Shown in pieces: positions 1 to 48,400 of a stretch of 64,000 bases of DNA. Position numbers and translations under genes: made by a program. The stretch's first letter is position 1. Every line of letters begins with the position of its first letter. The stretch lies in assembly GCA_019614645.1 (NCBI GenBank), contig JABWDB010000005.1, forward strand, positions 9,394,001 through 9,458,000, in the 5' to 3' direction. This DNA is from Stratiolaelaps scimitus (Eukaryota; Arthropoda; Arachnida; Mesostigmata; Laelapidae). The notes under the pieces were generated by a model. The model ran no database searches and was not told the DNA's origin. It saw nothing but the letters and a program-made list of their open reading frames with translations.

Positions 1-2443
1 GCGGGAGCTGTCGGGCGCCACCGCAACCGCTGCCGCGGTTACGGGTGCCGCCGCTGCCGCTGCGCCCGCAGTCGACGTCGTTGTCGTCGTAAAGGGTCCA
101 CCAGCAGCCGGCAAACCTCCGCGGCTCCGTCCCTCCACCGCCATCACTTGTTCACGCCATCGTCGTTTGCTGCTGTTGCGGCAGCCGCGGTGGCGGCTAC
201 GGCCGTGGCTGTTCGTCCCCGGCTGCTGTCTGTTCATTCGTTCGTTGCCTCTTGCTTGCTTCGTTCGCTTGTTCACTAGTTGGTTAGCTAGCGACCAGCT
301 GCCTGCTGGATGATGGCTGGTGTTCATAAGTGCTGCTGTTGTTGCTAGCAGTCGAGCGCTCCGTGCTCCTGGAGATCGTAACGCCCTCCACTGACCACAG
401 TTCAGAGGCACCCGTCACCCTCTGAGGAAGCGGTCACAGCGATCAGTGAACGAGACGAATCTACAGATGCAATAGCCAGGCTAGATGGTCATACAGACAG
501 AGAGAGACATAGCCAAAAAAAAAAAAAAAACAGTAGCTTCGTCGATCATATCGGTATCGAAACAACGAACGACTGCTGCTATCATTACTCCGAGGTTCAA
601 CTCCAGCGGGAGCACGAACGGCGGCTGCTGCTGCTGCGACTATTCTGCGAACGCAGACGTCTATGCTCTTCATGCATCATAATCATCTTCGCGTCACGCC
701 GAACTGAAATCTGCTCCACAGTGTGGCTGATCAATAAACAGCCAGCTCTGGCTCTGTTGCTGTTGTAGTTATCGGTTAGCGGTTAGTGCGTTCGTATTCA
801 TTCGAGTGCGAGATCTTGGAGACGTACAATGGATAGTGGGATCTACAAGATCACTGTGTATCGTCCGCTGTACAGCGATGGTCGCCACTTCTCTCAATGC
901 GTGTCTGCCAATCAGTGAGCGTCCAGTAAACGTCGAGTGGATTTTCTAGTGAGGAGAGCTGTCATACACTTGGCATACTATAAACGTTTCCGACAGGGCA
1001 CCACTAAGAGGCGACACTTCGAACCAGAATGAAATGCAGTTTCCAGCCTCTCGTATGCAGCTCACACAGATAGTTCATTGCGTTACCACTGCCGACACCG
1101 CCACAGTGGCGGTCAAAGCTGCACAGCTCGATAGTTCATTCCCCGGCTTGGTTCGACGGCAGTCAGGCACCGCACCAGCTGGGAGCAAGTAACTCCATAT
1201 AACTGTTGAAAATCAATGTGAGCAGCTGCTGTCCAACCCGTGTTTCATCACACACTCCTCGGTTGGCCTCTTGGCGCATATGGCTGTCCGTCGTTCAATC
1301 CTGGCCTATTGCTGGTGTCCCACATCGCGACAAGTGTTTTCCTACAGAAATAAACACACCACGGAGACGTAAGGTTGCAATACGTTGCACGTAGAGAACG
1401 CGCTTTTTTTTTCAGCATTACACATCCATAAATTCATAAACTGTCTCCCTGTTCGCCGATGATTTAAAACGGGGCATTAGTGTCCCTGCATGGAGAGTCT
1501 CGAATTAGTTCCTTATTGAGATTAAGAGAGAGACTGAGAGCCAGAGAGATCGCGAGAGGGTTCATCGGCGTCGCGTTACGACACGACAGCTGTATCCAGT
1601 GGTAACGCCAGCTGCGCAGAACATTCGCGCTTGTGCAGCTGGCGGAAAACAGACGACCATAGTGATCTGTCCCATCTACAGTACGTCTATCGATATCCAT
1701 CGGTCTTTATAGCATATGCGTGAACGTCGACTTGATGAAGTTGGGTGTCTCCGCGTCTATCGACGACGCTAACCAAACTCATTTGACTAGTATCCTGTGT
1801 GATCGCTTGTGACTCCCTTCTGCATCTGGCAGCTGTGTGCCTGTCTGTGTTTGACGACCCGACCGCTGCGCTGTTCCGGTGTGCTCCGTTTCGCACTTCG
1901 TCTCCCACGACGACATCCAGGGTCATCTACCTCCTGGTGTCATTCTTCGGGGGACGGCACTGGGTCCCTGGTCCCTGATTCTCCCAGAACACTTCATGTG
2001 CTGTCATGAGCAGCTTTCTGACACTATCTGAGGCAGAACAACGTCTTCTGTCTCATCATCGTCATTACCAGCGTCGTCCTCAACAACGGCACCAGTAGCC
2101 GCCGCCGCAGCAGCAAGGGCGAGAGTCAAGTGTCAACAAGGATTCGAAGTTTCAAGGTATCGGAGTCGAAATAGCGTCGTCTACGATGAACTAACATTGT
2201 TCTACGTCTCGGCGGACGTCTTAACGAGGATTAGAGAGCAGCCACCATCGAGAAAGGAGGAGACATGCACAACGATTTCGTCGTGTGATAAGATAACAGT
2301 GACAACAAGGAACAACCGGTCATAGCTGTACATAGCAAGGGTAGACAGCCAACGCATACTGCTAATGCGATAGGATCGAACGGTGGCAATAACGGGAACA
2401 GCAACGAAGGAGAACAGGCCGCAGGGCAACAAGTTGCGTTTAC
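1..2443. other. CpG- and trinucleotide-rich 5' leader/promoter-like block
   Basis: No convincing protein-coding gene is visible. The first 300 bases are very CpG-rich with many GCC/GCT/CGT repeats, and similar CAG/GCC-rich stretches recur near 610-640 and 2090-2130. Short open frames occur on both strands but lack coding character. The block ends at the ATG of a Gln-rich exon, so a promoter plus long 5' untranslated leader for that exon is the simplest reading. This is inference from composition and position; no TATA box or defined start site was identified. Confidence 0.4.
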
Positions 2444-2945
2444 ATGAAAATGAATTGGAACGCGTCCGATGGAGGTGGAACCAATGGGGGTATGCCCACG
2501 GTATCCGTGTCAATTTCGGGCCAGGGAGCGATTGGCCGAGGGCTGCAGCTTGCCAACGCCACTGTCCATCTGAATGGATCTTTTGGGGGGCTCTCGACAG
2601 GCCGAGGGACACAAGTGCAAGGGACTCAGGGAACGTTTCGACCACCCGTGCAACAGCTGCATTTACATCAACAACAACAGCAGCAGCAGCAGCAACAACA
2701 ACAATCGTATCAGCAACCCCAGCATCAGAATCAACAAACGCATCAAGCAGTGCTACAGCAACAGATGACAACGGCGACTGGCGGGCAAATGTCATCTCTA
2801 TCTCAGCAGATGGGCCCTAGTGGGGGAACCGTGGTACGCCCTGGTGGTATCTCTGGCCAGGTTAACCAGCAGCAGCAGCAGCAACAACAACAGCAGAATC
2901 AAGGAGGGCTGTACGGGGAGCCAACACTACTTAGTCTACTTACGT
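2444..2945 (+). CDS. Gln-rich N-terminal exon, possible first coding exon of MED15-A
   Basis: An open frame begins with two close Met codons (MKMNWNASDGGG) and runs through a Gly/Ser/Thr-rich stretch into two polyglutamine runs of mixed CAG/CAA codons (about residues 75-87 and 145-155). The frame stops at 2972-2974. A possible donor (GTATGT) at 2946 would end the exon in phase 1, and joining to the phase-1 acceptor of the MED15-A exon at 5326 keeps the frame open (about 744 residues in total). Gln-rich segments are typical of MED15, but in the family they lie after the KIX domain, and no KIX is seen here. It may therefore be an alternative N-terminus of MED15-A or an exon of an unrelated gene. 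I do not recognise the sequence outside the Gln runs. Confidence 0.4.
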
Positions 2946-5325
2946 GTATGTGTACTAAGCACTATTTGGAGTGATTATTTTCTATGATATGCATAATTGC
3001 GTTGGTGATGGGTTATTTTCGATTAAGATAACGATTATTATTGTTATGATTATTTTTATCACCTTATACCTACGAAAATTGGCGAATATTGATTGAAAAA
3101 TGAGATGCGCAGGTACACGGGTTCGATGCCAATGTCGAAACTCTACCGTGAACGTTGAACTTTGGCTGAGAGTCTGCCGGCAACAAAAATTTATTTTGGA
3201 CTGTAGTCGTGACCAAATTATGAATATGAGCTCGTGGGGATCATTAGTGAAGAGAACCACGGACGCTGGAACAACACTAATGACAATGGCACAGGAAACG
3301 GCTAACCAAATTATATTTGTAAAATTACTCCAAATATCTCCGGCTCGCAATTTAAACTGTCCGTTGCTAATTTGCAAAAATTAGGCCAGCCCCGACACGG
3401 ATCGTTGAACTCGAGATATACCTATAATACTAATTAGCAAATTTGTTAATCTATCTATTCTTTATTGTTGCTACCGTTCTCTGTATTCTGATCATGTCAT
3501 TTGTCATTTATAATGAATTTTGTTTCTCTCCCGCGAAGCAATCATCCTTCCTAAGCCTCGAAGATCCGGTGACAAATGTATTCCACCAATGCAAGTCTCA
3601 AATGCAAATGAGGGTGCTATTATATATTGTTGCCTACATGCTTATGCTGAATCCTGCCGATCCGTGTATCATGAAGCATATTTCGAACGTTGTGCAACAC
3701 TGCTATATTTCAATGAGACGTCAGTTTAGGACGGCACCAGTAAAATCGTCAGCAAGCTTGTCCATCTTCTACAAGCAGCGGCCAAGTACAGGTGGTGCGT
3801 TGCGTTGTGTCCAATTCAGGTCACTGAACGAACCGAGGTGAACGCACGGAGCTGATTTAGTCTCAGCGCTAAATTCAAATTTCCATTTCAAATCAATCGT
3901 CGCCGCCGCCGTCCTGTGGCGATCTCAGTTCCGTTCGAGTATCGTTCCCAACCGCTGTAAAGACCACGCATAACGTGGCTAGACGTTCCAGCCGTGGTGG
4001 TTATCGCGGTGCGCCACTCACTGTGGCTATTGACTGCTACTGTTACCGTTGTAACTGGTTCTGTTGTTGCTACTGCCGTTACCGCCGTCGTCGTTGTAGC
4101 TCTATTTATGTACTTCAACGCGACGACCACAAACGCCACCAGCGTCCATATGCGCACGCCGTTGTAACGATCGAGATTAGACAACGCGCGCGCGCGCGCG
4201 CCGTTGGCAGGTGGTCGCTCGCTTGTTGCTCGACACCGCCACCAACTCCGTGTCGCTGCGCGGTCCCCCTTTATCCTGCCGTGCCCTGCTTCGTGACACG
4301 ATAGCGACGAAAATACAAGGCTTTCAATGCAAGGGGTTACGTGTGACTATCCTCAGCGAGTCCACCGCTGAAATTGCTCTACCTCTTGATATGACATGAC
4401 AGGCAAACAGACCGCTAGACAGATAAATATAATAGCTATTACATAGATCCAATAACTGGCGGCGTTGACCAGCGCTTCTCAGTGGATGGGTCGACAACAC
4501 CACGGGCGAACACTAAATGATCACATTCACACTAAACATCATTCGCACGCCTTTGAGAAATATCCCCCCCCCCCCGTAGAGTTCCTAAAAATGCGTTGCT
4601 AGTCCTTCGTATCAAATTTGTGTTCTACTTATTTTCATACTATCTGATGATTTCTGTTGCTGCTGTTGCCACGGAGGGAAGGCCGTCCCAGTCGGTGTCT
4701 GTGAAGCCATTCTTTGTTTTGGGCGATTCTCATTTGGTGGAATCTATCGACACGAAACTAGTTTAATTAAAAGGTGCGATGTTTGTTCGCGTATGATACT
4801 AAATAATGCTTAATTTATTTTTATTTTCCTCTCACTCTCTCTCTCTCTCTCCCTGTCCTTATACTTGGAGAAAGCGCCGTGGTTGGTCAAGCCGTTGGCT
4901 ATTCCCTTTAGTGGGAGTTGATCATCGAATGTTTACGATGTGACCGTTGCTGAGTTGGGTTTTTAGTCGACAATCGTTACGTCTTAGCTTGCTCGAAAAT
5001 TGAGCTAGTTTATTTCTTTATAACATATGCGTTAATTGTATGCTATATTTAGCGACGCACGCAGATGATATCGTGTTTCGGACAAGCTACAAAACGGAAT
5101 AACGTGCATTTGAGGCAAAAGGTTGATGCTACGGTGAACAGAGGATTTGAAGCAGGGCTTTGACCCGACAAAATCGTCGGGTCGGAGACCAAGGCTTCGC
5201 TATTCTACTGAAAAAGGTAGAAATATCTATTGATAAGAGACATCCACTTCGGCTCGTTATACTCTGTAGAATTGGTGACAGAATTGTTAACTTATGTAAC
5301 AACGGTGTAAATGTCTGCACTACAG

Positions 5326-8300
5326 ATCCGAAAAAGAATCCCGGTGCTGTCGGCGCCCCGGGTCAAGGGCCCGCATCCGGGGCTCCTGGGGGTGTTGGCC
5401 ATGGAGGACCTCCAAGCGGACCTGATCCCATGATGGCTCTGCAGACAATGACGAGCCAGCAGCAGCAGCAGCAAGGTCCACCTGCAATGGCCGGAGGAGC
5501 CATGGGCAGCGGCCCTATGGTCGGCGGTCCTATGGGCGGTGTTCCTATGGGCGGAGGCCCAATGGGCCCTGGACAAATGAGAGGTGGCCCCATGCCTGGC
5601 GGGTCAATGGGCGGCCCCACTGACATGATGCAAGCTCAACCTCAACAGAACAACCCTCAGCAACCGAATGGTACTGGTGGGCTTAACCCAATGGCGATGC
5701 AAACACCACGGCCGATGATGATAAACCAAGGTGGCCTGATCAACCCGGTCATGATGAACCAACAGATGGGTGGTAACACAAGAGCGCCTCAACCTGGCGG
5801 CTGTATCGGACCCGGCCAAGGCATGATGGTCATGGGTGGGCCACCGCAAGCTAATATGATAAGACCGCAGATGGCTTCGCAGCAATCTCAGAATACCATG
5901 GTAAGTACAGGTAAGGAGCACGCATATATGTGCCATTTATGATATGCAATAGATGTTTTTTTATATACTTTTAATACTCCTATAATCCCATGGTACTAGT
6001 CGCTGAAGGGCCGGGCTATAAGAAGAGTGGGCTTCAAAAGAGGGTTTAGTAGGTAGATCTGCTACAATCAGGTTGAAGTCCTCCAGTATACACGCTAATA
6101 AATATTAAATGAGGCGAGGTCTACATGAGCATCCTCCGCCATCATATATATATATATATATATATATTTGATGGCGATATATATATGTGTATATAAACAG
6201 CATTCTACCTAGACAATTGGACTACGAGTCTAAGAATCTTACAAATTTTCTTACTATAACATTTTCATCTTCTGCGAATACAGGCTGGCATATCGAATTC
6301 GCAGTGCTTAGCCGTTACAAGCTTGATAGAAGGATAACATCTACTGATGCATACTAATAATGACGTCTATTGTGTTCTGGCCATATTTTCACGCGTTGTC
6401 AACAGGTCGCGAACCAGGGCGCAGTACAATCACCTATGGGCGGCCCGCTATCCAAGTGAGTGTCAAGAATCGAAGAAACGGCGAAGACTAATGCACGCAA
6501 TAGTCCATACAGAAAAATATTACGTAGGCGTTCTCTGATCCGCGTAGCATTGCTAACTGCAATAATATATATATATGTTGTCTTGTTCTAATATATATAT
6601 ATATATATATATATTAAAACCTTATCAGTAAATAAACAATCGGCGCAACGGTCCGTCTTATCTTCCTCTACGACCTACCTCAAAATAGGAAGTCGATCTT
6701 GCTTCATTCGACCATTGTGCCCATAACAGTAGTCGCATTTACTCGTTGTTCGTGTAGGGGAAGACTTTGTCTAAGATCTACGTACCTACGCTTATCTTCG
6801 GACTCCTTTTCAAGCCGATCACATAGTCTCTGAAAGAGTAGGTGGCGTCGATGAAGTGCCCCGAATGCAATCAATCATTAAAAAAGATAATAACATATCT
6901 GTATGCGTGTGTCTTGATGTCATACCTTATTCGTTTCACAGTCAAATGACGGGATCATCACCAGCCGGGTACGCGCATTCACCATCGCCGGTGGGCGTCG
7001 GAGGTCAGGGAGGCTACCTCCGCGGGGGGCAGGTTGGCGCCCCTTCACCAGGGTCCGCTCTCAATACCCCTATCGGATCGGTTGCTTCTCCCGCCGCCCA
7101 GCATCCTCAGCAGCATCCACAGAAGCAAACACAGCAGCCCTCGGGTAATGTTCCCGGTCGCAGCGCCGCTGAGGAGCAGGTCTATCTCGATAAGCTCAAG
7201 CAGCTAAGTAAGTACATTGAACCGCTACGCCGAATGATCGCCCGAATAGACAAGGACGAAGACCGCCAGAAAGACCTGATCAGGATGAGATCGCTGCTGG
7301 ATATTCTATCGGATAGCAATCGCCGATGCCCGATGGAGGTCCTCCTCAAGTGTGAGGGCGTACTCGAGAAACTTGACCTTGGTCCGTCCATACCACGGGA
7401 TCATATCGGCCATGTGCCCTCGGTGTCGTCGATGGCTCGCCTACAAAACGACAACCTCTGGCAGCCGTTACTCGACGCAATCAACGCGAACATTAAGAGT
7501 CCCATGTTTAATCACACACTGCAGCGCGTCTTCGGCCCGCCGATCACGATGTTGACGGGGGCGGCGTATTTTCGTACCGCGCCCTCACCGCCCCTGGCTT
7601 CATCGCCGCCAACCAAACGACGTCGAACGCCTGGCGACGACTCGGCCGAGATTCCTGATGTTCTTCAAGGCGAAATCGCACACCTCGATCAGCGGTTCAA
7701 GGTGCAGCTTGACCCGGTTCAGCACAGCGGCTGTCGCACCGTCAACCTTATTTGTCAATTAGGTAAGCATGGAAAATCGTTGAGCAAAAAAATAGTTCGG
7801 CCCTGTTATCTAATAGTAAGGCACAGTCGGTTGGTGCTGAAAATTGGTGACAAATATTGTCATCATGTAATCGTAAACTGCCGCTTTCATTGTTGTTCGT
7901 CTATTTCGTGATGAAACAATGTTCTCCCCTTGAAATACGTACTAGTTTACCGGTTTCCTACGCAGGCTACACTGAGATAGTTCCTTGCCGATCGCTCCCC
8001 GTGATATGAATGAATTCTAACTGTGTGTGCCTTTTAATTCTCTCTGTTACATCCGTCATGCTCACCCGATGTTCGCTGTTGCCATTCAACTTTAGACGAC
8101 AAGACTCTGCCGTGCGTCCCGCCAATATCGGTCGCCGTCCCTGAAAACTACCCGGATCACCCGCCGCGTTGCAACGCCAACCGGGCTCAATACGCGAGCA
8201 CGGCGTTCCTGTCCGACGTGTTGGACTCGCTTAGCTTACATCTGGACAAGATGCCATCGCAATATTCAATCACATCGCTGCTCGACACCTGGGAGATGTG

Positions 8301-8382
8301 CGTCCGCCAGATGTGCAGCAGCGGAAACAGCAACACCGGGAATACCCAAATGGCTAGACAACAGCGAGTGATCTCTTCCTAG
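5326..8382 (+). CDS. MED15: MED15-A: Mediator tail subunit 15 paralogue without a visible KIX domain
   Basis: MED15 is a Mediator tail-module subunit that links DNA-bound activators to RNA polymerase II. Four exons read cleanly: 5326-5900 (Gly/Met/Pro/Gln linker beginning PKKNPG), 6406-5-base-phased 50-nt exon 6406-6455, 6942-7762, and 8096-8382 ending at TAG. All junctions are GT..AG and phases agree (0, 2, 1). The third exon carries the family signature YLDKLKQLSKYIEPLRRMI followed by the RCPMEVLLKCEGVLEKL block, and the C-terminus contains QLDDKTLPCVPP and LLDTWEMCVRQMC, all matching the conserved MED15 C-terminal region that anchors it in Mediator. The upstream side is odd. In MED15-B the equivalent of the 5326 exon follows the KIX exons directly, but 2975-5325 shows no KIX exons. 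No stop or frameshift suggests a pseudogene. The true N-terminus is unresolved. Confidence 0.85.
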
Positions 8383-13306: not shown

Positions 13307-14024
13307 ATGAGTGCCGCCCCTGACGATGCCAACCTATGGAGAACTTCAGCGTTCCGGCAAAGTATCCGCTCGAAGATGTTAGTCATCCATGCGCACTAAT
13401 GCAATGATACTTTTCATTACTACAAACATTTTACCGCGTTATTCCTCTTTAGATTGCTGTATTTCTGATTTGGCCAGACGAAATTAGCCTTGAAGAAAAC
13501 CGTAGCGTTAGAATAGATAGGACCTCAATGCGTACGATAGTACTTCATCGTATTTGTATTTATCGGCGATCTCTCCTCTGAATGTCTGTCTGTCTCCTAT
13601 TGACTAATTATTCATACTGTTTCAGTGAGGAAGCTATCAGAGCGTCGCCCAACACTCAGTGCAACGATGCGGCCGAAATGGAAGATCACGCATTTAGTAC
13701 CTCCACCACAAAGGTATATGATCAGGGAAGCTGGGACGAGAGAGAGGGAAAGGGAGAAAAAATAATGTCCGATGTGTGACAGCGCCGGCTCTCAAATGCT
13801 AATTACTGTGCTAAGAAGTTGGGTCTCGAGTTGTTTGAGCCATATGGATACTTGGCTACTCCCGACTCAAATGTTTGTATACGCTATTTATGGAGTTTTA
13901 ACAAGGGACCATTGCTAACTGAGAATCAATCATATATTTTCCTTTATTTCTGTGTTTGCCTTTCCGGTGTATTGATTGCAGGATCAGTACCTGTCGATGG
14001 TAGCCTACCTTATCGAATATATTC
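13307..14024 (+). repeat. KIX module 1 (three exons)
   Basis: The core motifs are LWRTSAFRQSIRSKI, EEAIRASPN, AAEMEDHAF and DQYLSMVAYLIEYI. It keeps the FRQ helix-1 motif of MED15 KIX domains. Exons are 13307-13377, 13626-13713 and 13982-14024. It carries the initiator Met, so it is the N-terminal module. Confidence 0.8.
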
Positions 14025-17000
14025 GTAAGTACGCTGAACTTCCCACTCACTACAGTTGACAATCACCGGAAGACATCTTATGAAAGTGACACAGTAATCG
14101 AAAATTCTTTCAATTCAATTCAATTATTTCTTTATTGACGGAACTGCGAAATATTACAACGCTTAAGTTCTCGTATTAAAAAAAAAAATAAGATAAAAAG
14201 AGCGATCACCAAAGTATTTCACAAGGTTCTTCGAGGTGATATACCTTCAAAACATATCACAAAGTCATATTGAACAAGATAATTACAAGTGGTTTACTGG
14301 ATTTGGGTCAAAAAAGATTTTAGCCTTTTTTTTATTTCGAAAGCAAATTTCTTAACACAGGTGAGAGACCGAATCTCTCTAGGCAAAGAACCCCAGATTA
14401 ACGGCAGGCGATAAGCGAGAGTATGGCGGCTTGATTCTTTAATAGCCAGAGGTGTCATGAACACTGTCGCTCTACGAGCAGTTCGTTTGGTGCAGGCTTT
14501 CATCGGAAGAGCAGCGTCTGTAGGCACAATACCCTTGTGTATCTTGAAAGCAAGAAGAGCGACGTGAATTGAGTGCAATGTAGTCAGCGAAGGAAGGTCA
14601 AATTTCACAAGGACGTCTGCAACCGAGTCTCTTCGAGTTTTACCAGTAATAGCTCGGAGCGCGTCATTCTGTATAATCTCCCCTCTCTGAAGTACATTTT
14701 TGTAGCCTCCACCCCAGACTGATATACCATAGCTGAGTAGAGGTACCAGAAGGGCTTTGTAAAGGTACACCAAGCCTTCTGTAGGGATTCCAAGCTCTCT
14801 AAGTCGACGCAAAGAGGCTACTACAGCGTAGCACTTTGGCAATACGGAACTTAAATGATCCTTCCATCTGAGCTTTTCGTTCAAAACCAAGCCCAGGCAT
14901 CTGACCGTAGGAGACCACTGCATTTCAATATCACAGAGACGCTGTTGGCCGATCGCAATGTTCCGTTGTGGTGAACGAAACAGAGTTATATTCGTTTTGC
15001 TTGCATTAATGGCAAGACAGAAACTCTCAAACGTTTTTACGATGACGTCTACTTTACGAAGCGCCTCAGAAATGTCCTGTTGTGCCCTTTCCGGCCGCAC
15101 GCGAAACAATAGAGTGGTGTCATCCGCGTAGGCGATTGTTTTACAAAAACCATCTTTATCAATTTTCCGTAGAATAAAATTTATGAGTATTATAAACATG
15201 TAAGGTCCAAGAATGGATCCCTGCGGTGTCCCTAAGTTAACCTCTTCCCAAGTAGATTCTACCAGACCAACTTTTACTGCTTGTCTTCTACCGGTGAGGT
15301 ACGAGCGGAACCAGTTTACAACCATATCGGAGCAGCCAGCACAGGATAGGGCTTCAAGAAAGAGCGTATGCGAGAGACAATTGAACGCGGCTGATACATC
15401 AAGGAATACACCGAGGCAAAGATTGTTCCGTTCAATAGAATCATTGATTTCTTGCCATAGATGCGCTAAAGCCAGCTCGGTCGAACGTCTTCTACGAAAC
15501 CCAAATTGAGAAGGGGAAAAGAAATTAGTCGAATCCAAATGAAGTTCAAGTCTCCGCTTCGCCAATTACCTTGGATAAGTAGTCTACAAGAGAGATTGGC
15601 CGATAATTTCCTGCTAATTTACGGTCACCCTTGTTTTTGAAGAGGGGTATTATAGAAGCATCTTTAAGTTGGCGGGGAAACACTCCACCCTCAAAAGATA
15701 GGTTGACGATGTGTGCTAATGGTCGTGCGAGATGCTCTGATGACAACTTCAACAACCGATTCGGTAAACCTAGAGCTCCACAACTCCAAGTGGCCTTCGT
15801 CGACTCCATTGCCGACTGGACCTCCTTGACACCAACAGGTGCAAACGAGAAGTGTTCTCGTGACGTCCAGATTGACTCCAGCACTTCACGAGCATTATCA
15901 TGGGACCTTAGTGAAGCCACTGTCCTTTCGCCAACTGTTGCAAAGTGCACATTTAGTTCATTGGCAATTTCAATTGGCGATGACAGCTCACCCAAAGCAG
16001 TTTGCCCAAAGCAGCTTTAACTCATACTTTCTTCGACTCTCAATCAATATCTCTCTATGTATCTATTGCATATTCCAATATTTCGAAATAAGCACCTATG
16101 TTCTAACGTTTGCAATTTGTGCGTCGAATCTATGGAACACCGACTATAGGAGGTGATTCAGAAAGGCGAAGTATCCCGACAACTGAGGATTCGTGGAAAT
16201 CGCCAGCACTTCGAGAAAATGTCCGCGCGAAGATGTAAGGCTCCGTTTTTCATACGTGCAGTTATACATGACAAGCAAAGTACACTAGACACAAAGACAA
16301 TGCGACATCACGTGTTTGTCCTGCTAGGGTTTCACCATAGAATCATATTTGGACTCAAGCTCCCGAGGTGACCTTCGCCACACTGGTTAGACACTTACAT
16401 AGTCAAATAGAGAACAACACAACTAGAACGCAACTATAACGAGCTTGCCAAATACTAGCCGAGGTAGAAACGCGTCCACCTACCTGTTATTTAGTTAGCC
16501 CGGCAAATACTCTGGCAGGAACTGGCAGGTTCTATTTTCTCGCTGAGTCGTTATTGTTCGACCGTTCTCGCTAACACTTTGCTAGCAGCAATAGTCATGT
16601 CGCGCCTTGCGTCTGCTTCGAATACTGTCATCACTATAAGCACTATTCAACGTTACAGCGAATGGGCGATCAGGAACTCTCCTAACCAGTCGTATGAGAA
16701 CGCCGTCGAAATGGAAAATCAGGCGTTCATGCGGTCGACGACAAAGGTGAGCGAACCACCCTCTCGACCTCATTGCCAACGGAAGCCTTCAATACACAAA
16801 ATGACGAACGCTTTTATGGCTGGAGCACTCATTGTCACCTGAGGATTGTTGATCGTACATTGTCGAACATAGCCATCGAAAGCAATGCTCTTAATCATTA
16901 ATTATCTGTTTATGCTCCCCGTTGAGTGGCGCCATAAGCATGTCAACGTTTCGTTAGCTACCTTTTCGATCGATCTGGTATAATTTTTTATTTTGTTTTC

Positions 17001-18745
17001 AGGAGCAATACCTCTCGTTTGTGTCACGGATCACAATGCACATCAGTAAGTGGAAGCGATTTCCAAATTATTACGTTGTAAGTTATTTATGCTGGTGATA
17101 CATCGTGTTTAGACATCGTGCAGAGGACACGAAGATACCTAAATGAGTATGAGTCATCTCCCGCGGGGAAATGGCCGTGTCATACGGCGTGGTGACATTA
17201 GAGCGGGCAAGATGACGACAGCGTATATATATATATATATATATGGAGGGATCTTCATGATCGTGATATTAATAAATGACGTAACAATCATATACATTTC
17301 GAACGGCTTGAATTCCAGGAGGCGACGGAGAAGGAATTAGCGAATCAATATTGCGCCAGCTGGAAGAAACGAGCTCTTCGGTTAACGGTGACCATTGGAA
17401 GACTCCGCACTACCGACGACTAATTTGTTCGAAAATGTAAGTGAACAATTCAACTGGATGTCGCTGCCGACCGTCCCTAGGTGCTTGCAAATGTGAGACA
17501 TCAATCAGGCAAACTGATCGCACCAGACCGATTATTAACTATCGCACCAGACCGCGAATGCAGGGCCACATGTCTCTATGCTCTGCAGCTGATGGTGTTC
17601 TGTGCTATTCGTGTTGGTGCAATTGATAATGCAGTCTATTCGATGGCCAATGAAATCAATCACTTTTGGATATCAGAAGAATACATCCGTCGATTATTGA
17701 GAAAATAGACGATATTTTTTTCATTCTTCTTTTCGCAATCGTTGTGTTTGTATAACGACACGTTTCTGTCTCTATGGGACATTAGCAAGGCGCTGCGTTC
17801 AATAGTCTTTCTCTACACTATCCCTGTATTTGCAGCGAAGAGGCAATTAGGGATTCACCGAACCAGCATCGCCGAACCGCGGCTGATATGGAGAACACAC
17901 TGATCAATAGAGCCACCTCAAAGGTACAGCTATCCGATGTATAATACAATGTAATAGACTTACTACAAATAACATTTACGAACGATTAGTTATCAAACGT
18001 TGACTTTATATTACTTTGATAGCTGAACGCGCTTGTGTTAACCTTCAGTGGTCCACGTTCGGACGAGCTCTTGTATCTCGAAAGTATCTATGATAACAAC
18101 AACAGCAACAACGACGTGCCTTCGTGCAAAGCGATTCCACTGTCTCGATATCTGGAGCGTATGCATTGATCATCGACGACAAGTAATCGATGTAATGTAA
18201 TTGATATCTGCATCGAGTCCTACTGCCAACGTTGTCATAATCATCCTATTGTTGGTGTAGACAATTGAAGGTTTTGCCTCCCGTACGAAATGACTAATAA
18301 TAGTGTCTACTATTCTGCGGCTCTTTCAGGATGAGTATTTGTCGTTCGTGGCTCGTCTTGTCATTCGCATGACTGGTAAGTTTAATAGTCAGCAACGGCC
18401 ACAGTAATAATCAAAACACCACATCGGTAACTTTCTCGGTAACTCTGGCATTCGACGCGCTAAGAGGTCGCCTTAGGACTGTCCAACTCTTCCGATTAAG
18501 TTACCTGTGAATTGATTCTTTGTGTGCCCGCTCTATGATGTTGCCCTGTTTGGCAATTAATTCGCTGCCAATTTAGTTTTTGTTCTAAATACGGTTTCGG
18601 CATTACATTGCTTGTGGCTCATGACGCGCTCTTGCTCTTTCAAGGTCCTGCTGCAGACTCGGACGCTGCTGTTGGCGCTGAGCGCGCTGCTGGGCGTGGC
18701 AATTCACGGGGCGCCGGCCGCGCAGGGCAGCCAGAGACAACCTGA
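13307..18745 (+). CDS. Triple-KIX gene: three tandem MED15-type KIX domains
   Basis: Ten exons join in frame: 13307-13377, 13626-13713, 13982-14024 (KIX1); 16150-16234, 16659-16746, 17003-17045 (KIX2); 17319-17436, 17836-17923, 18330-18375 (KIX3); and a possible tail exon 18645-18745 ending TGA. The sum is 771 nt, 256 residues. Each KIX repeats the intron pattern of MED15-B: exon 1 ends in phase 2, exon 2 is exactly 88 nt, exon 3 ends in phase 1. The ATG matches the MED15-B start (MSAAPDDANLW versus MSAPMGEDSW), and an in-frame stop lies upstream near 13201. KIX domains bind short amphipathic activation-domain helices. A protein carrying only these would bind activators without the Mediator-anchoring C-terminus, so it could be a decoy or scaffold. 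Alternatively KIX3 could splice to the MED15-B exon at 25302, which also accepts phase 1. The tail exon is uncertain because another frame there encodes a signal-peptide-like ORF. Confidence 0.72.
14107..16021 (-). mobile_element. 5'-truncated LINE (non-LTR retrotransposon), antisense in the KIX1-KIX2 intron
   Basis: On the minus strand this region encodes the reverse-transcriptase part of a non-LTR element and ends in a 3' UTR with an AATAAA-like hexamer and a short AATTG tandem tail at about 14107-14127. There is no endonuclease region upstream: the reading frame opens at about 16021 after a TAA, so the element is 5'-truncated. It lies wholly between KIX1 exon 3 (ends 14024) and KIX2 exon 1 (starts 16150), opposite to the host gene. 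A short tandem-repeat tail is reminiscent of CR1/L2-type elements, but the clade cannot be assigned by eye. No clear target-site duplication was found. Confidence 0.85.
14294..15995 (-). pseudogene. Non-LTR retrotransposon reverse transcriptase, frameshifted
   Basis: Two overlapping minus-strand frames together form one reverse transcriptase. The upstream frame (15995 to about 15546) holds the early RT motif NYRPISL. The downstream frame (about 15565 to 14294) holds FGFRRRRST, LDVSAAFNCL, LGTPQGSILGP and the catalytic YADD motif, then a C-terminal region with LRWKDHL and LLSYGISVWG typical of LINE ORF2. Reading changes frame just after the early RT motif, near 15550-15565, so this copy cannot make an intact enzyme. 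The rest of the RT domain is well preserved, suggesting a fairly young insertion. Confidence 0.85.
16150..17045 (+). repeat. KIX module 2 (three exons)
   Basis: A linker (RGDSERRSIPTT) precedes EDSWKSPALRENVRAKI, EWAIRNSPN, AVEMENQAF and EQYLSFVSRITMHI. Exons are 16150-16234, 16659-16746 and 17003-17045. An alternative acceptor 12 nt downstream (16162) keeps the same frame. The module enters and leaves in phase 1, so it can be duplicated or skipped without a frameshift. Confidence 0.8.
17319..18375 (+). repeat. KIX module 3 (three exons), most diverged
   Basis: A longer linker (begins RGDGEGISES) precedes GDHWKTPHYRRLICSKI, EEAIRDSPN, AADMENTLI and DEYLSFVARLVIRM. Exons are 17319-17436, 17836-17923 and 18330-18375. 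Helix 1 has lost the FRQ motif (HYRRLICSK), which suggests a changed binding surface. Exon 3 is one codon longer than in the other modules. Confidence 0.78.
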
Positions 18746-23969: not shown

Positions 23970-26900
23970 ATGAGTGCGCCGATGGGTGAAGACTCTTGGA
24001 AGAGTGCGGCTTTTCGCCAGAATGTTCGCTCGAAAATGTAAGCTTTTTTTGTTGTTTTTTTATTGCTATCATATCCAATCGTTGGTTGTATAATTTATTG
24101 ATACAGCACATGTAGGATATATATATATATATATATATTCGTTGTAATGGGAAGGATGGCAGACATTTCAGTTGCAGTCCAATGCTGGTTCGCCATTTAG
24201 TGTTAAAGTGGTAAAACAACCCATTTTGGGAACGGACCGTTGCGTTAAATCAAGTCGTTTGTATCTCATGAATTCCATACTCTCTCTTGCTGCTGTTACA
24301 GTGAGGAGGCGATTCGGAGCTCCCCAAACCAACAGTACAAGAATGCGGCCGAAATGGAGAACCACGTGTTCAATAGATCCGGCACTAAGGTAAGAATAAT
24401 CGAAGGACGTACCTTGCTGAAATACCGATAGGTTAGAGGAGACCCAGTACTCGGATTGTTGCTGTGTGCAATATGCGTATTGAACTTTGGGCCGCGCTTT
24501 GATGAGAATCGCTGGCCAGGCGTAGTCTCTACCGGTGTCTGTTGCACCCGTATCGTGCTTTGATTGTTGTCAAGACTAGGCTGGGGAAGGGCCAGTTGGC
24601 AGACAACACAAAAGGTTATCAGGTTCCGATTTTTCACCTAGATATGCACACCTTGAGGGTAAATACGAGCAATTTTTGTTGTATGTCTAACACGTTCGAT
24701 CGAGGAAGGATCTAACTTATGTGGAGTAGCCATCTGACAGTTTTTGTGCGTTTTCTCGTACAGGATCAGTATCTATCGCTGGTGGCCCGGCTGATCATCC
24801 ATGTCAGTAAGTGTCTTCGAATCATTTCATATCTGAATGTTATTTTTTCCATACTATGACTGCTTCTCGCTTCACAGAGTCGCTGTTGTTGGCCAGCTAT
24901 TAAATACGTTTCTAGCCAAGAAAATGTCTACGATTTAGAAATCAGCTACAATACGTGTTGTGACAGAGCAGACATCGCCTGTCGTTGATGCGATGACGCA
25001 CTATTATCGTAAGAGCTATAAAATACTTCTACTTTATTTGAGTCCCTTGTGCGTGTGGTACAAGGACTATGACGAATTTAGTAAGCGCGAATAGCTGATC
25101 AAGTTATCGTCTTGTTTTATCGAGTCCATTAAGCTATAGGACATACTTATGTTCTATCTTACTCATTTTAGAATCCAGAATTGTTTTTGTTTTTCCTCTT
25201 CGCGAAGCACCAACTGTTATGAATTGGTTTGTCTTGTATACCTCTATAGATTTTGTCCTTCTTGTCTTACTAAATACCTATTATTTGCGTGCGTATTGCA
25301 GATCCGAAGAAGAACCCCGCTGCAGCCGGCGGTGGACAAGTGCCAGGGCCAGGGGGTCCTGGTGTCGTTGGCCACGGAGGGCCTCCGGGTGGACCCGATC
25401 CTATGATGGCCCTCAGAACGATGACCAGCCAACAACAACAGCAGCAAGGCCCTCCCCAGATGGGCATGCCAATGGGTGGTCCTGGTGGACAGATGGGTGG
25501 TCCTGGTGGACAAATGGTGGGTGGTCCTGGTGGACAAATGGTGGGTGGTCCTGGTGGACAAATGGTAGGTGGTCCTGGTGGACAAATGGTAGGTGGTCCT
25601 GGTGGACAAATGGGCGGTCCCGGTGGACAAATGGGTGGTCCCGGTGGACAAATGGGTGGACCCCCCGATCTGATGGTACCCCAAGTACAGCAAAATAATC
25701 CACAACAGCCGAACGGTGCCGGTGGACTCAACCCAATGGCAATGCAACAGGCTAGGCCTATGATGATTAACCAGGGCGGGCCAATGAACCCCATGATGAT
25801 GGGTCAGCCCATGGGGGGTGCTGTGAGAACACCTCAACCTGGTGTCGGAGTTGGTCCTCCAGGGCAAGGCATGATGGTAATGGGAGGTCCTCCGCAAAAC
25901 AAGATGCGGCCCCAGATGGCTCCGCAGCAGCCGCAGAACACGATGGTGAGTAAGATGGCACAAATTACTTGGCGAAGTATTAATTAATTTCTCAAGTTAG
26001 CTCTAACGTGAGCTCGATATCATACTGCATATTATAATAGAGGAATGGATAATCGGCTAATCGACCGCACTTACAGTATGTAACATCGGAGTGGAAGGTA
26101 GGAAAGTGGACTGCGTTGCATTCTACGCGTCCTGATTTACGTGGTTGTAATCTATTTTCGTGTTCGATTTTACAGGTACCAAATCAGGGCGCAGTACAGT
26201 CCCCGATGGCTGCTTCAATGGCGAAGTGAGTAATTCGTTTTTAATAAACATTTTTTCAATAAGACTGTGCATATTGGTATGCAATGACCCGAAGAGGCTC
26301 ATAGAATTTATGTAAACTCCAAACGTAACGTACGGATCAGGCCAAACTGTTGGCACTGATATAGTTATATGAAAAAACATCATATGACGCTGTATGGACA
26401 AGGATCCGTGATCTATGTTGCTGGTGGCTCGCAGAGGTGCTCTTTGGACGCGGGCTTGAAGTTTTGTAATTGCTTTACCGCACGGATTACGTCTGGAAGA
26501 CAGTTCCGTTTTTGACTTATCCCCAGGATGCTCTTGAACGCTGTCATCGAAATCAGTAACCAAATCTGCTTTTAGATGTTAAAGTTTCACAAATATCGAG
26601 ACCAACACTGCCGTGCTGTGGAACATTAGTAGAAATCGATGTTGAGCAACTTTCTGGCGATTTACCCTTGTTAACCCTAAAGTGGTCTTCTCCTATTAAC
26701 CTAAAGTGGTGCCTACTGATGAGCAGGCCATGGGGTACTTACTTACTTACTTACTTTATGTATATTCTTGCAGCCAAATGACACCATCACCGGCTGGGTA
26801 CGCGCATTCGCCATCGCCGGTGGCCGTCGGAGGTCAGGGAGGCTACCTCCGCGGGGGGCAGGTTGGCGCCCCTTCACCAGGGTCCGCTCTCAATACCCCT

Positions 26901-28238
26901 ATCGGATCGGTTGCGTCTCCCGCCGCCCAGCATCCTCAGCAGCATCCACAGCAACAACAGCAGCAGCAGCAACATGGCGGAGGTCATCCCGTCGGGCCGG
27001 CGGTGGCGGCGGCCCGTAGCGCTGCCGAGGAGCAGGTCTACCTTGACAAGCTGAAACAGCTAAGCAAATACATTGAGCCGCTGCGTCGGATGATAGCGCG
27101 TATCGACAAGGACGAAGATCGCCAGAAGGAGCTGAGCAAGATGAGCACTCTGCTCGAGATTCTGTCGGACAGCAATCGTCGCTGTCCCATGGACGTTCTG
27201 CTGAAGTGCGAAGGCGTCCTTGAGAGGCTCGACCTCGGCCTGCCCATCCCTCGGGATCACATTGGCCACGTGCCGTCGGTGACGTCGATGGCGCGACTGC
27301 AGAACGACAATCTGTGGCAGCCATTACTCGATGCTATCAATGCAAACATCAAGAGTCCCATGTTTAATCACACACTGCAGCGGGTGTTCGGTCAGCCAAT
27401 TACGATGTTGACTGGCGCATCGTACCTGAACTCGCCTCCATCTCCACCCTCATCACCGCCGGCCAAGCGGCGTCGGCCCGCAGTAGGATCTGACGATGTA
27501 GCAGAGATTCCCGATGTTCTCCAGGGTGAGATCGCCCACCTTGACCAGCGATTCAAGGTGCAGCTTGACCCGGTTCAGCATAGCGGATGTAGGACGGTCA
27601 ACCTCATCTGCCAACTCGGTGAGTGATACCTGAAGAGCACGGCGTATGTAACAGGGTGGTCAGGCTATTGAACGAAAAAAAATTGTACAATTAACGCTTC
27701 TAGGTGTTCGAGCTGGCTAAGACGCACACAATAATTTCTTACGAAAGTACAAATTCTACGTACGAGATATCTGCCAGCGAAGAACCGTTGTTCGATTGAA
27801 TGTATAGTTACGCTTCTAAAGTTAAACTAATAATAACGCACATTATCGCCGTTATCCCCCGACCAGATGAGATCAGATGATTCCATGCATCCTCTTGCCA
27901 ACAAAGCGTTGTTTTTTCTCCTAGATGATAAGACACTTCCCTGTGTGCCGCCAATCTCCGTCACGGTCCCAGAGAACTACCCGGAACATCCGCCGCGTTG
28001 CAACGCCAATCGGGCACAGTATGCGAGCACGGCGTTCCTGTCTGACGTCCTCGACTCCCTCACCGTTCATCTGGACAAGATGCCGTCGCAGTACTCGATC
28101 ACGTCGCTACTCGACACCTGGGAGATGTGCGTTCGCCAGATGTGCAGCAGCACCAGCAGTAATAGTAGTAGTCGAAACGGCGGCAACTCAAGGCCCGTGG
28201 CTAGCAAGGGACCCCAGCAGAAGGCGATCACCTGTTAA
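23970..28238 (+). CDS. MED15: MED15-B: full-length Mediator tail subunit 15
   Basis: Seven exons join in frame to 683 residues: 23970-24037, 24302-24389, 24764-24806 (KIX); 25302-25945 (linker); 26176-26225 (50 nt); 26774-27618; 27925-28238 (TAA). The KIX reads EDSWKSAAFRQNVRSKI, EEAIRSSPN, AAEMENHVF, DQYLSLVARLIIHV, which closely matches MED15 KIX domains. Next come NPKKNP, a GPDPMMALRTMTSQQQ block equivalent to the segment after KIX in animal MED15, a Gly-Pro-Gly-Gly-Gln-Met repeat array, and the conserved C-terminus (YLDKLKQLSKYIEPLRRMI, RCPMDVLLKCEGVLERL, LDDKTLPCVPP, LLDTWEMCVRQMC). KIX receives activation domains; the C-terminus anchors the protein in Mediator. An upstream in-frame ATG at 23871 would add 33 residues if no leader intron ends at 23887. 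I chose 23970 because it matches the triple-KIX start. The C-terminus ends in a Ser/Asn-rich tail different from MED15-A. Confidence 0.9.
25475..25654 (+). repeat. Coding minisatellite in MED15-B: eight GGPGGQM(V) units
   Basis: Eight tandem units of 21 or 24 nt encode GGPGGQM or GGPGGQMV (60 residues in total). Several neighbouring units are nearly identical at the nucleotide level, indicating recent slippage or unequal exchange. MED15-A has a looser Gly/Pro/Met-rich segment at the same place but no regular array. Confidence 0.9.
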
Positions 28239-30610: not shown

Positions 30611-31297
30611 CTACGACTTTGCATAGGCTGCGATGAGTTTGCTGATAATCGATTTGCCGTTACCCGTCGGCTGGGTGCCGGACGGAGGCAAGAGCGAGTC
30701 ACAGCTGGGATTATCGTCGAAGCCATTGCACACGACGTCGATGAGATTGGACGAGACCAGCCGAATCATGGTGTTGCCGTACTCGACCGCCTCCGCACCA
30801 CACGTAGCCTCGACAACATCGTGTGAGCATTTCTTGTAACGGGCGTAGGTGCAGCACGCCATCGTGATCCTGTCCTGGAAGGGCGTCTCCTCCAGTTTCT
30901 CCAGGGCGGCTTGACCGTCGACGAAGCATTTCTTGCCCTCCTCATGCGATTTAGCTAGGCACGACGCGTGCTGCAGGTAGTTGTTGCGTAGTTCGTCGCC
31001 TTTCGTACAGAACTTCTCGCCCCGTTCCTTATTGCCGCTGTTAATCGCGAATGTGAGAATCTCCTTCTGTATGGGAGTCGTACACTTGTCGGTGTAGGCG
31101 GTGAGACACTCAAACGCCTCTTTGGCTTGGCCGCAGTATTTATCGATTTCGTCATCGCTAACTGGCACCCCTTTCATGCCGGCAGCTGATGCCGAACACA
31201 GCTCGAGCTCTCGAAGGTGGCAGGCATCAGAACGAACTGCTGGTATTAGAAGCACAGCCTGTACGACGAGAATTATGAGGCATCTTAATGTCGACAT
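30611..31297 (-). CDS. Secreted Cys-rich protein, 27 kDa hemolymph glycoprotein (DUF1397-like) family
   Basis: An intronless 228-residue protein. The first 23 residues (MSTLRCLIILVVQAVLLIPA and VRS) form a signal peptide, so the product is secreted. The mature part has 14 cysteines including a CC pair (MACCTYARYKKC), spaced among amphipathic helical stretches such as YCGQAKEAFECL and EKFCTKGDELRNNYLQHASC. This layout, length and motif style resemble the arthropod 27 kDa hemolymph glycoprotein family (DUF1397), whose biochemical role is not well defined. The C-terminal 30 residues are Ser/Gly/Pro-rich and probably flexible. The start is the only Met before the signal peptide. A TATAAAA motif lies about 210 bases upstream on the same strand. 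Family assignment is from memory of the pattern and is moderately secure. Confidence 0.82.
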   Translation of the reverse strand: MSTLRCLIILVVQAVLLIPAVRSDACHLRELELCSASAAGMKGVPVSDDEIDKYCGQAKEAFECLTAYTDKCTTPIQKEILTFAINSGNKERGEKFCTKGDELRNNYLQHASCLAKSHEEGKKCFVDGQAALEKLEETPFQDRITMACCTYARYKKCSHDVVEATCGAEAVEYGNTMIRLVSSNLIDVVCNGFDDNPSCDSLLPPSGTQPTGNGKSIISKLIAAYAKS

Positions 31298-33626
31298 ATC
31301 GGTGTCACTAGGAGTGGCGAAACTAAATTAGACCGTACACAAGACTTAATTTAACGTATCTTAAGATTGTGCTTCTCGTGTCTCTTGTAGACAGCTTAGC
31401 TGAATGGTGATGTTAAGAAAACTCGATGCCAGTTGACTAACGCAATGTTCGCTTGACAGCCGCCGTCAATCAATGACAGTGTCCACTGGTTATTGGCAGA
31501 ACGATTTTATACTGTCGGCCTCTGGCACAACTTCCTCCGGGAGCTTCCTTGAAGGGGAGAAAGCTTCCGAAAATGATGCGTGCAAAAACAGCGAAGCGAT
31601 ACAAATAGTCCCAATCACGAACATGACAATAATATGCACTCAGCGTAAAGTCTCCCCTTAACGGGCGCTGTTGTCATTCGAATACCGACGATATTGGCTT
31701 TGGAGCGATTTCGTACGTCACGCTCGCCCATTATGATAAAACAGGTACAATACAACAAGGGAAATAAATATCGATGCGGAGAAACTTGTCAAGACAACCC
31801 GGCACGGCAACGAACACGCAACGCTGGTGTTTATTGCCACTTAGCAACAGGGGACAGAGGTAGTCATGTGCGGAACGAGTCCCTAAGTGAGTTGTTAAAA
31901 TCAACTCTGGCCGAAGACGAGGGGTCGCCTTCATTAAACTATGACGTTCGAGCATTTATGATATAAGTCAGTTTTCCCTATTGTGATTTACGAACTTCTG
32001 TTTCGTCAAACAACAAGTGATAGTTACTGGAAATTCTCTCGAAAAACGCTCGAGCGTCATGGCATGTGTAACAGCTAACGGCCAAGCCATGCCCGAGCGC
32101 CGCGGGCATTTCAGATAATTATTACGAAGTTCATTATAAACATGCATCTACTATTTTTGGTTCTCGTATCACATTACTTTCACCGATGTTCATTGCAATG
32201 AATATAATATTTACAAAAGTTATAGCATTGTATTGAAACCAACATCCAAAGCCTAATAATAGAATAGTTTATACTTCGGCTTTCTTTTATTTGTTTTCAC
32301 GAACTTCCTATAGTCCTACTATTGCAGACCATTATGTTGGCCTCTTTTTTCGTCTCGCTTATTTGATCCTCCCGTTTGACGTCGGTGAAGCCTAGTGTGC
32401 CCCGGTGACATTCCTCGGCCTTCCGCGTCCCAACGACGACATTACATCGTACAACAATATATTCAATTGTTTCCTCTTTCTCTGCTCACAGAGAACATTT
32501 GATAATATTGACGTCTTCCGTATACGATGCGTTTGTGGACGTTTGTGTGCAATACCCCCCACGCTACAACCCGTAAACAATCCTGATGCAGGAGAATTCG
32601 GTGTTCTATGACTTCTAAATCTATGGTGAATACTCTAGGTGGCCTTATTTCTTAGGGTATTTCTTGTTGTATTCGGTCGTCTTAAACAGAACGTTTTTTT
32701 TTTACTTTGAATTGATTGAGTTAAACGACTTTTTCGTTCATAGCATTTGTGGAAAACCTCTTCTCTTGGCTATATTTCTTGTTCTTTGCGTGCTACCACC
32801 TTCTCTTCATTACTGGACTAAGTGGGACGAAGAATGATCCAACTATTATATATATATATATATATATAGGGAGAGAGAGAATAGTTATAGTGATATATTT
32901 TCGGTCACTTCGAATGTCATGCGTCCGAACAGCGTATCTGGAGAGTAACATTTGCATACGCAAACTAGGTGCCGAGCAAGGCACTCTTTTCTATATCTAA
33001 TACTTGGGACAGATGGCAACTGAATGCAATTGAAGTTAACACCTTGCATGTTTTATATCCAGAGAGGTGCAATATTCGCTCACGGATCGTTTTCTTGGGT
33101 GTGTGTCATACGGTGCCATATGCAGACATTTGTGTACGTTCCATACATTCCTGGGATCGTCGTCAATGTGTTAGACACATCGTCCACTCCGCGATATTGT
33201 CAGATGTCTTCAATATGAGAACAAGTGACCGGGTGTGCCAGACAGATACTACTATAGACCGAGCGAGGTAAATAACAGCCCGCAGATAATTACAGCCTAC
33301 CGCCTGTAACCGTTGTTCATTCATTCGCGTTGACTCTGTGCAGCCGTCAGTGATTGTCTCTCTGTATAGATGTTATGTTAGTGCGTCTTAACGAGCACTC
33401 CTACGAACACAGCTGTAGCCATATGAGCGTCACGCGATCCTTGAGTACGACCTATGAAGAAGATCTTCGCGCCGCTCAAGTGGCTGGTTGTTAGCCTGAT
33501 CCAGTGTAGCGGTCGAACATTTCGCGTTGCTGTCTACCCAGCCACATTATAACAAGCACACGATAGTGCTGCTATACGGTGTTCGGTACAGCTGGGATTG
33601 TGTTTGTACCTTCGCTGTTGGAGAGG
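31298..33626. other. Intergenic region between the divergent 27 kDa-type and anoctamin genes
   Basis: The two flanking genes diverge, so both promoters should lie here. Apart from the TATA-like motif at 31505-31511 and a (TA)n tract at about 32850-32870, I see no features or conserved coding sequence. Upstream anoctamin exons could also lie here. Confidence 0.5.
31505..31511 (-). promoter_or_regulatory. Possible TATA box of the 27 kDa-type gene
   Basis: The minus strand reads AGTATAAAATCG, a good TATA-box match, 208 bases upstream of the start codon at 31297. It would imply a 5' leader of roughly 175-185 bases. No initiator was verified. Confidence 0.35.
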
Positions 33627-45418: not shown

Positions 45419-48400
45419 CTATATCATTACTATTTACTATTACTACTAGTATTATTTTCTACGACAGATTCTGTTCTGTGGGTTGACAAAAGTGATCTTG
45501 CTCTGATCCATTACAATTAAACAAAGGCCTCAATCTCAGATGGTTGGTTTCCCTACGGTATGAAAGGCACTGATAACCAATACAGAAATATGATAATCAA
45601 AGAGAACAGAACGGCGAGTGAACCCATAAAGAGCTCAATATTGTTGGCGCTGACAACAAATTATTTATTGACTCTACACGCACCAAGTTCAATCGCAGCG
45701 AGCTATAGCTACGAAGAGCGGCAACTATTTCACGCTTACGATTGACGTGCATGTGCAGATCATTCTGCAGTAACTTCGAGGGCTTAAGGTCTAAAGGGGT
45801 ATGAACTGAGGCTCACTATCATCAGGCGTGTCCGCCGTTTCATCGTCAATTAATTTACTACGTCGTTGTTTGCTGCCATTTAATTCACAGATGCTATTCT
45901 ATCATCCATTAAATCAATTAGGTACCCGGTGGGCATTTATGGCCAAGGTCATTTCAATGAATGCACCACCTGATTGTGTCTGTCGAGTGGACGCGCTAAT
46001 TACCTCTTCCCTACGCTGTCAGTATTTAAATCTAAAGTCTACCAGGGTGCCTGGCTCCAGCTTAATATCTAGCTGTAGCAACAGCAAGAGCGGCAATAGC
46101 AGCGCTAGCAATTCATATTGAGATCTGCCTCTGGCGACATCTCTTCGACGCGCCTGCGTAATAAGCTGTCACGGCTGGCTGAATATCTAGTTGACGGTGG
46201 GGGCGGCGGCACACACAGCCATTAAACGCCGAAACGTTAGCAGCCTTTTGCGGCTCTGCCGGACACCGCGGATTTCAGTCGCAGTGGACTACTGACCCCC
46301 GCACGCCGCGAGGTCGGTCAGTTAGTCGTCATTTGGAACCTACACCGACTATTGGGTGTTGGTAGGTAGACACGCCTCTGCTAACTGGGAGAGTGGGAGA
46401 GAATAACAGTGGAAGGGAAGAACATGAAAATTGCCGAGAACATGACCCAACCCGCGGACCCCGTAAGCGTTTAGACTTGAGCGCCTCCTTTAGCGGCGCT
46501 TCTTGGACACGGACGGACCACAGCGTCCCCCGGCAAGGGGTACTAGAGGAGTTCGACTTAGTTAGCTCAGCCCACTTCTATGACTGCCACCAGCACCACC
46601 ACCACTATTCTATGGGCGGGAAGATATTGTTGGATGCAAGATGCTGCTGCTGCTGCTGTTGTTATCGTTGTTGGTGCCGCTGCTGCTATCGGTGATGTTG
46701 TTAGTACTGGCTGATTGTTGGAGTGTTGAAGGCACCACTGCTGTTGCTGCTGCTGCTGCAGAAAGCGCGATTGTTGGTAGCTCCTCCACTTCTCGGTCAG
46801 AGATGGAGACACTGCGACAACCGTGTGCGTATTTTCTGCTGTGTCAAGAGCAGAGAAATCGGTTCAAGCCATCCCCCTCCCGCGACCCCCGCTCCTATTC
46901 ATCCCATTCTCTCTGCCTACAGCCCCCGGACAAAAGGCGTCACGCTTGCCGATTTGCCACAAGGCGCGCGCAGCATCACGGCCGGTCTTCACTATCACAT
47001 AGAAAGAGTGAGAAATTCGAGAGGTTGTGGAGCGAAAAACGTCTGGGGTGAACACTCGTGGCTTTGCTTGTAGTGGGCGTTATGGTAGCATCGCGCACCA
47101 TATCGAGTATAAGGAATATATCTCTATACATTCGATACTATGGGTTGAACTGGGGATCCCCTTTTTCGTTTGTGAGTTTAGTTCCATACCACTGAAAGAT
47201 CGGTAATATTCCTACCGGTTAACAAGACAAGTCGATGGAATGAAGTAATTATTTGGGAACAATTTACTCGTGTAGTTGACAACAGATATCCGGCTTAGTC
47301 GCCGGCTCAACAAAGATGAGCGCAGGTATTGCTACGTACGTTATATCATTGGTAATGAAAGTGAGTGTGGCTAGACTAGAACTGATGTGATGACCATTTG
47401 ATTATGTGCTTATTGTCACCAAAAGCCGCAACAAATCAACAAAAAGATATGAATGTAACATTAATACCCTACCCAGCTGTATACACATGGCTTACACAGT
47501 CGGCTAGACGTAGAGGTCTATAAAGCCTGTAAAAGGCCTATGACGGCGATCGAATGCGTACCTAAATACCAGCCTTCCTCTTAAACTTGTTTCTCTGCTA
47601 AGAAGGATTCCTTGCTTCACGAGCTACAAACGCAGCAGCAATTGCGAGCCAAATTCAAATGTTCTATGGGCTTTCGCCGCACCCATGCCCGAGCCGCAGG
47701 TCGGTCGGTCTGTCTGATTAAGGTCAGAAGACTTCAGTGACTCCAGATGCTGATGCTGCTACTGCGTCTGAGAATATCGCCTATCTAACAGCACTGTTTG
47801 CCGTTTACCGAGGGTTTCTTGCACAACGTCTCTGTGTGTATATGTGTCTTGTCTGTGCTCCTTATGAGACCCCTTCCCTCTCCTCCGCCGCTCCAGGTAC
47901 TCACCCTCCCGTAGGCTCACAGCATCGCCGTTGCATAACTACTAGAATACAACTCAACTAGAATGCCACGGGCGGCACATGGCCAGATCGACGGACAGAC
48001 AGGCAGATTCAGAGACGGTCGGATCAAGCAGCGGATTGCTCCGTACTACCACGGAGGAGGTAGACTCCGCCCGACCCGGGGTCCCTTTCTGAGGCCTGTT
48101 GTCAGGGGAATTGTTCAGTCTGATCGTTCAAAAGTGGTGTAAGTCACTGAAACGAGCATGCTACACTTTGTGCTTGGATTAGACCGGTGGTGGCTGTGGT
48201 GAGAACTAGTGCTCGATATTCCTGTGGATTTAACATGTGTATGTATGCCTGCGAAGTCTTTGGAAGCACAGACACAGCAAGAGAGGGGGGTATTTGGCTG
48301 GATTATCAGTGAGTGATTAGTGCGAAGCTGTGTGGATCGGATTAAACCAAGTTTACCAAAGCCAGATGGTGGTCCTAGTGCGATTTTCCTTGCATTTCTA

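Follow-up and report, generated by a model that had tools for sequence, protein, structure and literature searches.

A 64,000-nucleotide stretch of the genome of the mite Stratiolaelaps scimitus (hereafter the window) contains a gene for a protein with three MED15-type KIX domains, lying between two MED15 paralogues, and the same gene is found in the mite Varroa jacobsoni. Ten exons, separated by nine introns that are all GT-AG, join into a full open frame of 256 amino acids (Table 1). We think it rather likely that this conserved gene arose in the mite lineage by partial tandem duplication of the 5′ end of MED15, and that its product acts away from Mediator as a multivalent binder of activation domains, either as a competitor or as a bridge.

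Table 1 Features of the window (positions count from its first nucleotide)
Feature	Position	Strand	Content
MED15-A	5326–8382	+	Exons 5326–5900, 6406–6455, 6942–7762 and 8096–8382; Q/G/M-rich part, Med15_M, Med15_C
Triple-KIX exon 1	13307–13377	+	First helix of KIX 1, with the start codon; corresponds to exon 1 of MED15-B
Triple-KIX exon 2	13626–13713	+	Central exon of KIX 1, 88 nt
Triple-KIX exon 3	13982–14024	+	Last helix of KIX 1; phase 1 at end
Retroelement stretch	14294–16016	-	In intron 3, between KIX 1 and KIX 2
Triple-KIX exon 4	16150–16234	+	Linker 1, then first helix of KIX 2
Triple-KIX exon 5	16659–16746	+	Central exon of KIX 2, 88 nt
Triple-KIX exon 6	17003–17045	+	Last helix of KIX 2; phase 1 at end
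Triple-KIX exon 7	17319–17436	+	Linker 2, then first helix of KIX 3
Triple-KIX exon 8	17836–17923	+	Central exon of KIX 3, 88 nt
Triple-KIX exon 9	18330–18375	+	Last helix of KIX 3; phase 1 at end
Triple-KIX exon 10	18645–18745	+	Variable tail, residues 224–256, and stop codon TGA; first codon split with exon 9
MED15-B	23970–28238	+	Complete, seven exons, 683 aa; KIX, Med15_M, Med15_C

Along the protein, K1 (residues 11–68), a 14-residue linker, K2 (83–140), a 25-residue linker and K3 (166–223) are followed by a 33-residue tail. All three modules are built on one exon plan, with lengths of 71/88/43 nt in K1, 85/88/43 nt in K2 and 118/88/46 nt in K3; the central exons all begin in phase 2 and finish in phase 0, and the end of every module is in phase 1. 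The KIX exons of MED15-B (68/88/43 nt) follow the same layout, and both intron sites within the KIX coincide. The exon sets of modules 2 and 3 are symmetric (phase 1-1), and tandem addition of such a set leaves the reading frame intact. The original prediction, which was made from the sequence alone, had placed all nine exons from 13307 to 18375 exactly and had recognized the intron placement shared by the three modules, but it gave the last exon of K3 as 43 nt rather than 46 nt. It also ended the gene at 18375, whereas exon 10 carries the frame on, in phase, to a TGA stop. Its main claim, that the three KIX domains form a gene of their own lacking a MED15 tail, is borne out by the gene's own start, terminal exon and stop and by the separate gene product in Varroa. 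We also confirmed that no MED15 C-terminal domain follows within 6 kb, the next tail exons found being those of MED15-B, and that the MED15-B downstream is complete, with KIX, Med15_M and Med15_C.

The tripeptide RGD stands at both KIX–linker junctions (14024/16150 and 17045/17319) of the window protein and of its Varroa counterpart; in the window, an intron interrupts the arginine codon at each junction. This is perhaps a trace of module duplication. Within the retroelement stretch, a reverse-transcriptase frame (14294–15565, minus strand) matched RVT_1 in Pfam with an E value of 3.3e-24, and a second frame that overlaps it (15546–16016, minus strand) gave on its own nothing above the Pfam cut-off.

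Pfam assigned the protein to Med15_N (PF09606) in three stretches, with 222.7 bits against a cut-off of 24.1 (E 3e-67). The same comparison gave no match to Med15_M or Med15_C, none to the HAT, bromodomain or TAZ domains that are hallmarks of CBP/p300, and a score for the CBP-type KIX (PF02172) of 20.7 bits, below its cut-off of 27. AlphaFold, run without an alignment, predicted three three-helix units, and among these alignment-free predictions those of K3 and K2 resembled KIX domains of solved structure. Model confidence for the exon 10 tail was below 50, and on the model the tail is probably disordered.

The original prediction had proposed looking for the same array in related genomes, and we found it in V. 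jacobsoni. LOC111262397, a protein of 255 amino acids that is catalogued as "uncharacterized protein", is co-linear with the window protein and 77% identical to it across the whole query (E 2.7e-122). Of the 5.77 billion proteins in the library, 1,890 became scored candidates, and this was the sole one to pass; it was again the sole passing match when a two-row profile was searched (6,204 candidates). Candidates were proteins of 0.55–1.75 times the query length that shared short words with it, so the search does not cover every genome. In this library, the nearest relatives are V. jacobsoni for the triple-KIX protein and Tropilaelaps mercedesae for MED15-B. Each domain is 88–90% identical to its counterpart (K1 52/58, K2 52/58, K3 51/58); the figures are 10/14 for linker 1, 15/25 for linker 2 and 11/33 for the tail. 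The Varroa protein ends at a place equivalent to the end of exon 10, with a different tail sequence. That a second mite has this gene too, and has kept its three domains with little change, indicates that the triple-KIX gene is real.

We built a midpoint-rooted tree of 28 KIX domains, comprising the six triple-KIX modules, MED15-B and 21 MED15 proteins drawn from 120 listed. Each of K1, K2 and K3 paired with its Varroa counterpart (support 100/99, 100/99 and 100/100, respectively), which indicates that the array predates the split between the two mites. One group (94/89) comprised the modules together with the KIX domains of MED15-B and Tropilaelaps, and was nested in a group of nine with P0004 (99/95). 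Varroa and Tropilaelaps mercedesae are both dermanyssoid mites (Mesostigmata, Dermanyssoidea). The six modules were not recovered as a single clade in this 28-domain tree (AU p 0.04).

We then compared the modules with MED15 at conserved sites. An ungapped KIX was obtained from 107 of the 120 listed MED15 proteins, and 26 of its 58 columns were at least 90% conserved. The motif used in the first KIX filter touches two of these 26 columns; a motif-free filter retained 107 rows and gave the same counts. In the other 13 proteins the first 90 residues yielded no such stretch; several of these, among them P0003 and P0005, have no KIX in their entries. At the 26 sites, K1, K2 and K3 depart from the consensus 9, 12 and 11 times in the window and 10, 12 and 9 times in Varroa, with 8, 11 and 9 departures identical in both mites; the KIX of MED15-B departs at 5. 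Because most departures are common to both mites, the modules appear to have specialized and then been held. Such change followed by constraint is the pattern that new, different binding sites would leave. With departures at 9–12 of 26 sites, it cannot simply be assumed that the triple-KIX protein binds the partners of MED15.

The two flanking paralogues differ in what could be found of their 5′ ends. MED15-B is 78% identical to a MED15-like protein of T. mercedesae, and the second-best match in its library search was a MED15-A-like protein of the same species. No KIX exon was found upstream of MED15-A in positions 1–5325 of the window, and no convincing phase-1 candidate for its first exon was seen there. 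The T. mercedesae MED15-A-like model (P0003) is likewise without a KIX; its contig is 7 kb long, and the model may begin within an intron. Ahead of MED15-A lies an open Q-rich frame of 193 aa (2393–2974, plus strand) for which Pfam gave nothing at E values up to 0.01, and no donor site in phase 1 that exceeded the score threshold joins it to MED15-A. MED15-B contains a run of GGPGGQM(V) repeats (25460–25660); GGPGGQM is absent from the Tropilaelaps protein P0002. Elsewhere in the window, an uninterrupted frame of 238 aa on the minus strand (30611–31327) has many cysteines and a signal-like start and showed only a sub-threshold Pfam match to DUF19 (E 0.083); its product may resemble haemolymph-type proteins of mites. 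A plus-strand open frame of 684 aa (48317–50371) was without a hit in Pfam at E values of 0.01 or below.

The triple-KIX protein is probably a stand-alone binder of gene activators. The suggestion of the original prediction, that such a protein could compete for activation domains or cluster them and so add a regulatory layer on Mediator, would suit the gene's anatomy. The transcription factor SREBP is described as contacting MED15 through this domain, and small molecules that block the contact are described as having protected mice from diet-induced metabolic dysregulation (PMC5138257). As the MED15 KIX is the SREBP contact site, a protein that is nearly all KIX should bind activation domains and not bring Mediator. 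In the history we propose, the 5′ (KIX) end of MED15 would have been partially duplicated in tandem in the mite lineage, giving a gene for three MED15-type KIX domains on linkers of 14 and 25 residues, with a short tail and neither Med15_M nor Med15_C. Its protein would be made but would not be a Mediator subunit, and up to three diversified sites could bind activation domains, or short helical motifs of other kinds, simultaneously. Activators might thereby be drawn away from MED15-B, or several activators, or an activator and a co-regulator, might be bridged. We lean towards competition or buffering as the most likely outcome, with bridging second, because little is conserved besides the KIX modules and linker 1.

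A related reading, in which the diversified modules form an adaptor or co-repressor scaffold that bridges different partners, as Arabidopsis KIX8/9 do with PPD and TOPLESS, seems to us fairly unlikely. The distinct and conserved departures of the three modules are consistent with it, as is the description of plant KIX proteins as adaptors (PMC5814100), but the tail is the least conserved part of the protein (11 of 33 columns). The array could also be an alternative 5′ half of MED15-B, with read-through and splicing of exon 9 to exon 4 of MED15-B yielding a three-KIX MED15. The geometry would allow this: the two lie on the same strand about 7 kb apart, both are in phase 1, and the frame stays open through exon 4 when 18375 is joined to 25302. 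We nevertheless regard it as distinctly unlikely, given that a terminal exon with a stop exists and that Varroa has a 255-aa form with an equivalent end. The Varroa sequence is also present in an 'lgn'-tagged source, which we infer to consist of transcript assemblies, since ten MED15 entries found under 'lgn' only sit on transcript-like contigs of about 1.6–2.7 kb; the longest contig behind the Varroa entry is one of 32.6 Mb.

The failure to find a KIX in the 5.3 kb upstream of MED15-A, together with its lack in P0003, would suit a split MED15, in which the array captures activators and works in trans with a KIX-less MED15-A whose tail sits in Mediator. However, the 5′ end of MED15-A was not found in the window and a KIX could precede it, P0003 derives from a short contig and may open in an intron, and no docking region is known; we consider this very unlikely. 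That the locus is a relic of duplication, a set of pseudo-exons without a product, is scarcely credible. The retroelement in intron 3 would fit a decaying locus, but the complete open frame and splice sites, and the co-linear Varroa protein with its closely matching domains, already contradict such a reading.

We think it rather unlikely that some mesostigmatan mites have gone as far as dividing MED15 into parts, with a MED15-A that lacks the KIX, a MED15-B that is complete and a separate triple-KIX protein whose three diversified sites act in trans as a multivalent, tunable buffer or bridge for activators; if so, this would be an animal regulator of Mediator built from Mediator's own receptor domain. 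Activators such as SREBP reach Mediator by docking on the MED15 KIX. A natural, conserved protein with three KIX domains and little besides is a ready tool for asking, in vivo, if free KIX domains cluster activators or compete with them, and at least one parasite of honeybees, Varroa, has the gene. The triple-KIX gene also illustrates how a new gene can be born through a repeated symmetric (phase 1-1) exon set.

In the open-licence full-text literature searched, we found nothing on KIX arrays that derive from the MED15 of an animal, no description of LOC111262397, and no paper on MED15 or paralogous Mediator subunits in Varroa or on the Mediator complex in Tropilaelaps. Among known systems, the N-terminal KIX of MED15/ARC105 (PF09606) shares with the mite protein the sequence family of all modules, the exon layout seen in the MED15-B KIX and the modelled fold of K3; unlike MED15/ARC105, the mite gene has three copies, no Med15_M or Med15_C, and module-specific departures at conserved sites. 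Varroa LOC111262397 is the orthologue, with 255 rather than 256 residues and the same domain order; it is of the same kind, with a different tail sequence. The short C. elegans paralogues CBP-2 and CBP-3 are comparable in that they are described as likely partial duplications near a KIX co-activator, but that co-activator is CBP, not MED15, and the relevant passages of the two reports describe no KIX array (PMC10320766, PMC10743222). The reports disagree on which paralogue keeps the KIX without the acetyltransferase domain, CBP-2 according to PMC10320766 and CBP-3 according to PMC10743222; knockdown of CBP-2 or CBP-3 is described as affecting several promoters (PMC10320766, PMC10743222). Plants also have KIX domains outside MED15 and CBP, in tandem and stand-alone KIX proteins and in KIX8 and KIX9: tandem KIX domains are noted in a survey (of rice, by its context), up to six are reported in Brassica oleracea (PMC3936767, PMC5668377), and KIX8/9 are described as adaptors for TOPLESS (PMC5814100). 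These belong to the plant lineage, and the plant and mite arrays would be of independent origin. The triple-KIX protein sets a known domain in a new architecture, which has a catalogue entry from Varroa but no description in the literature searched.
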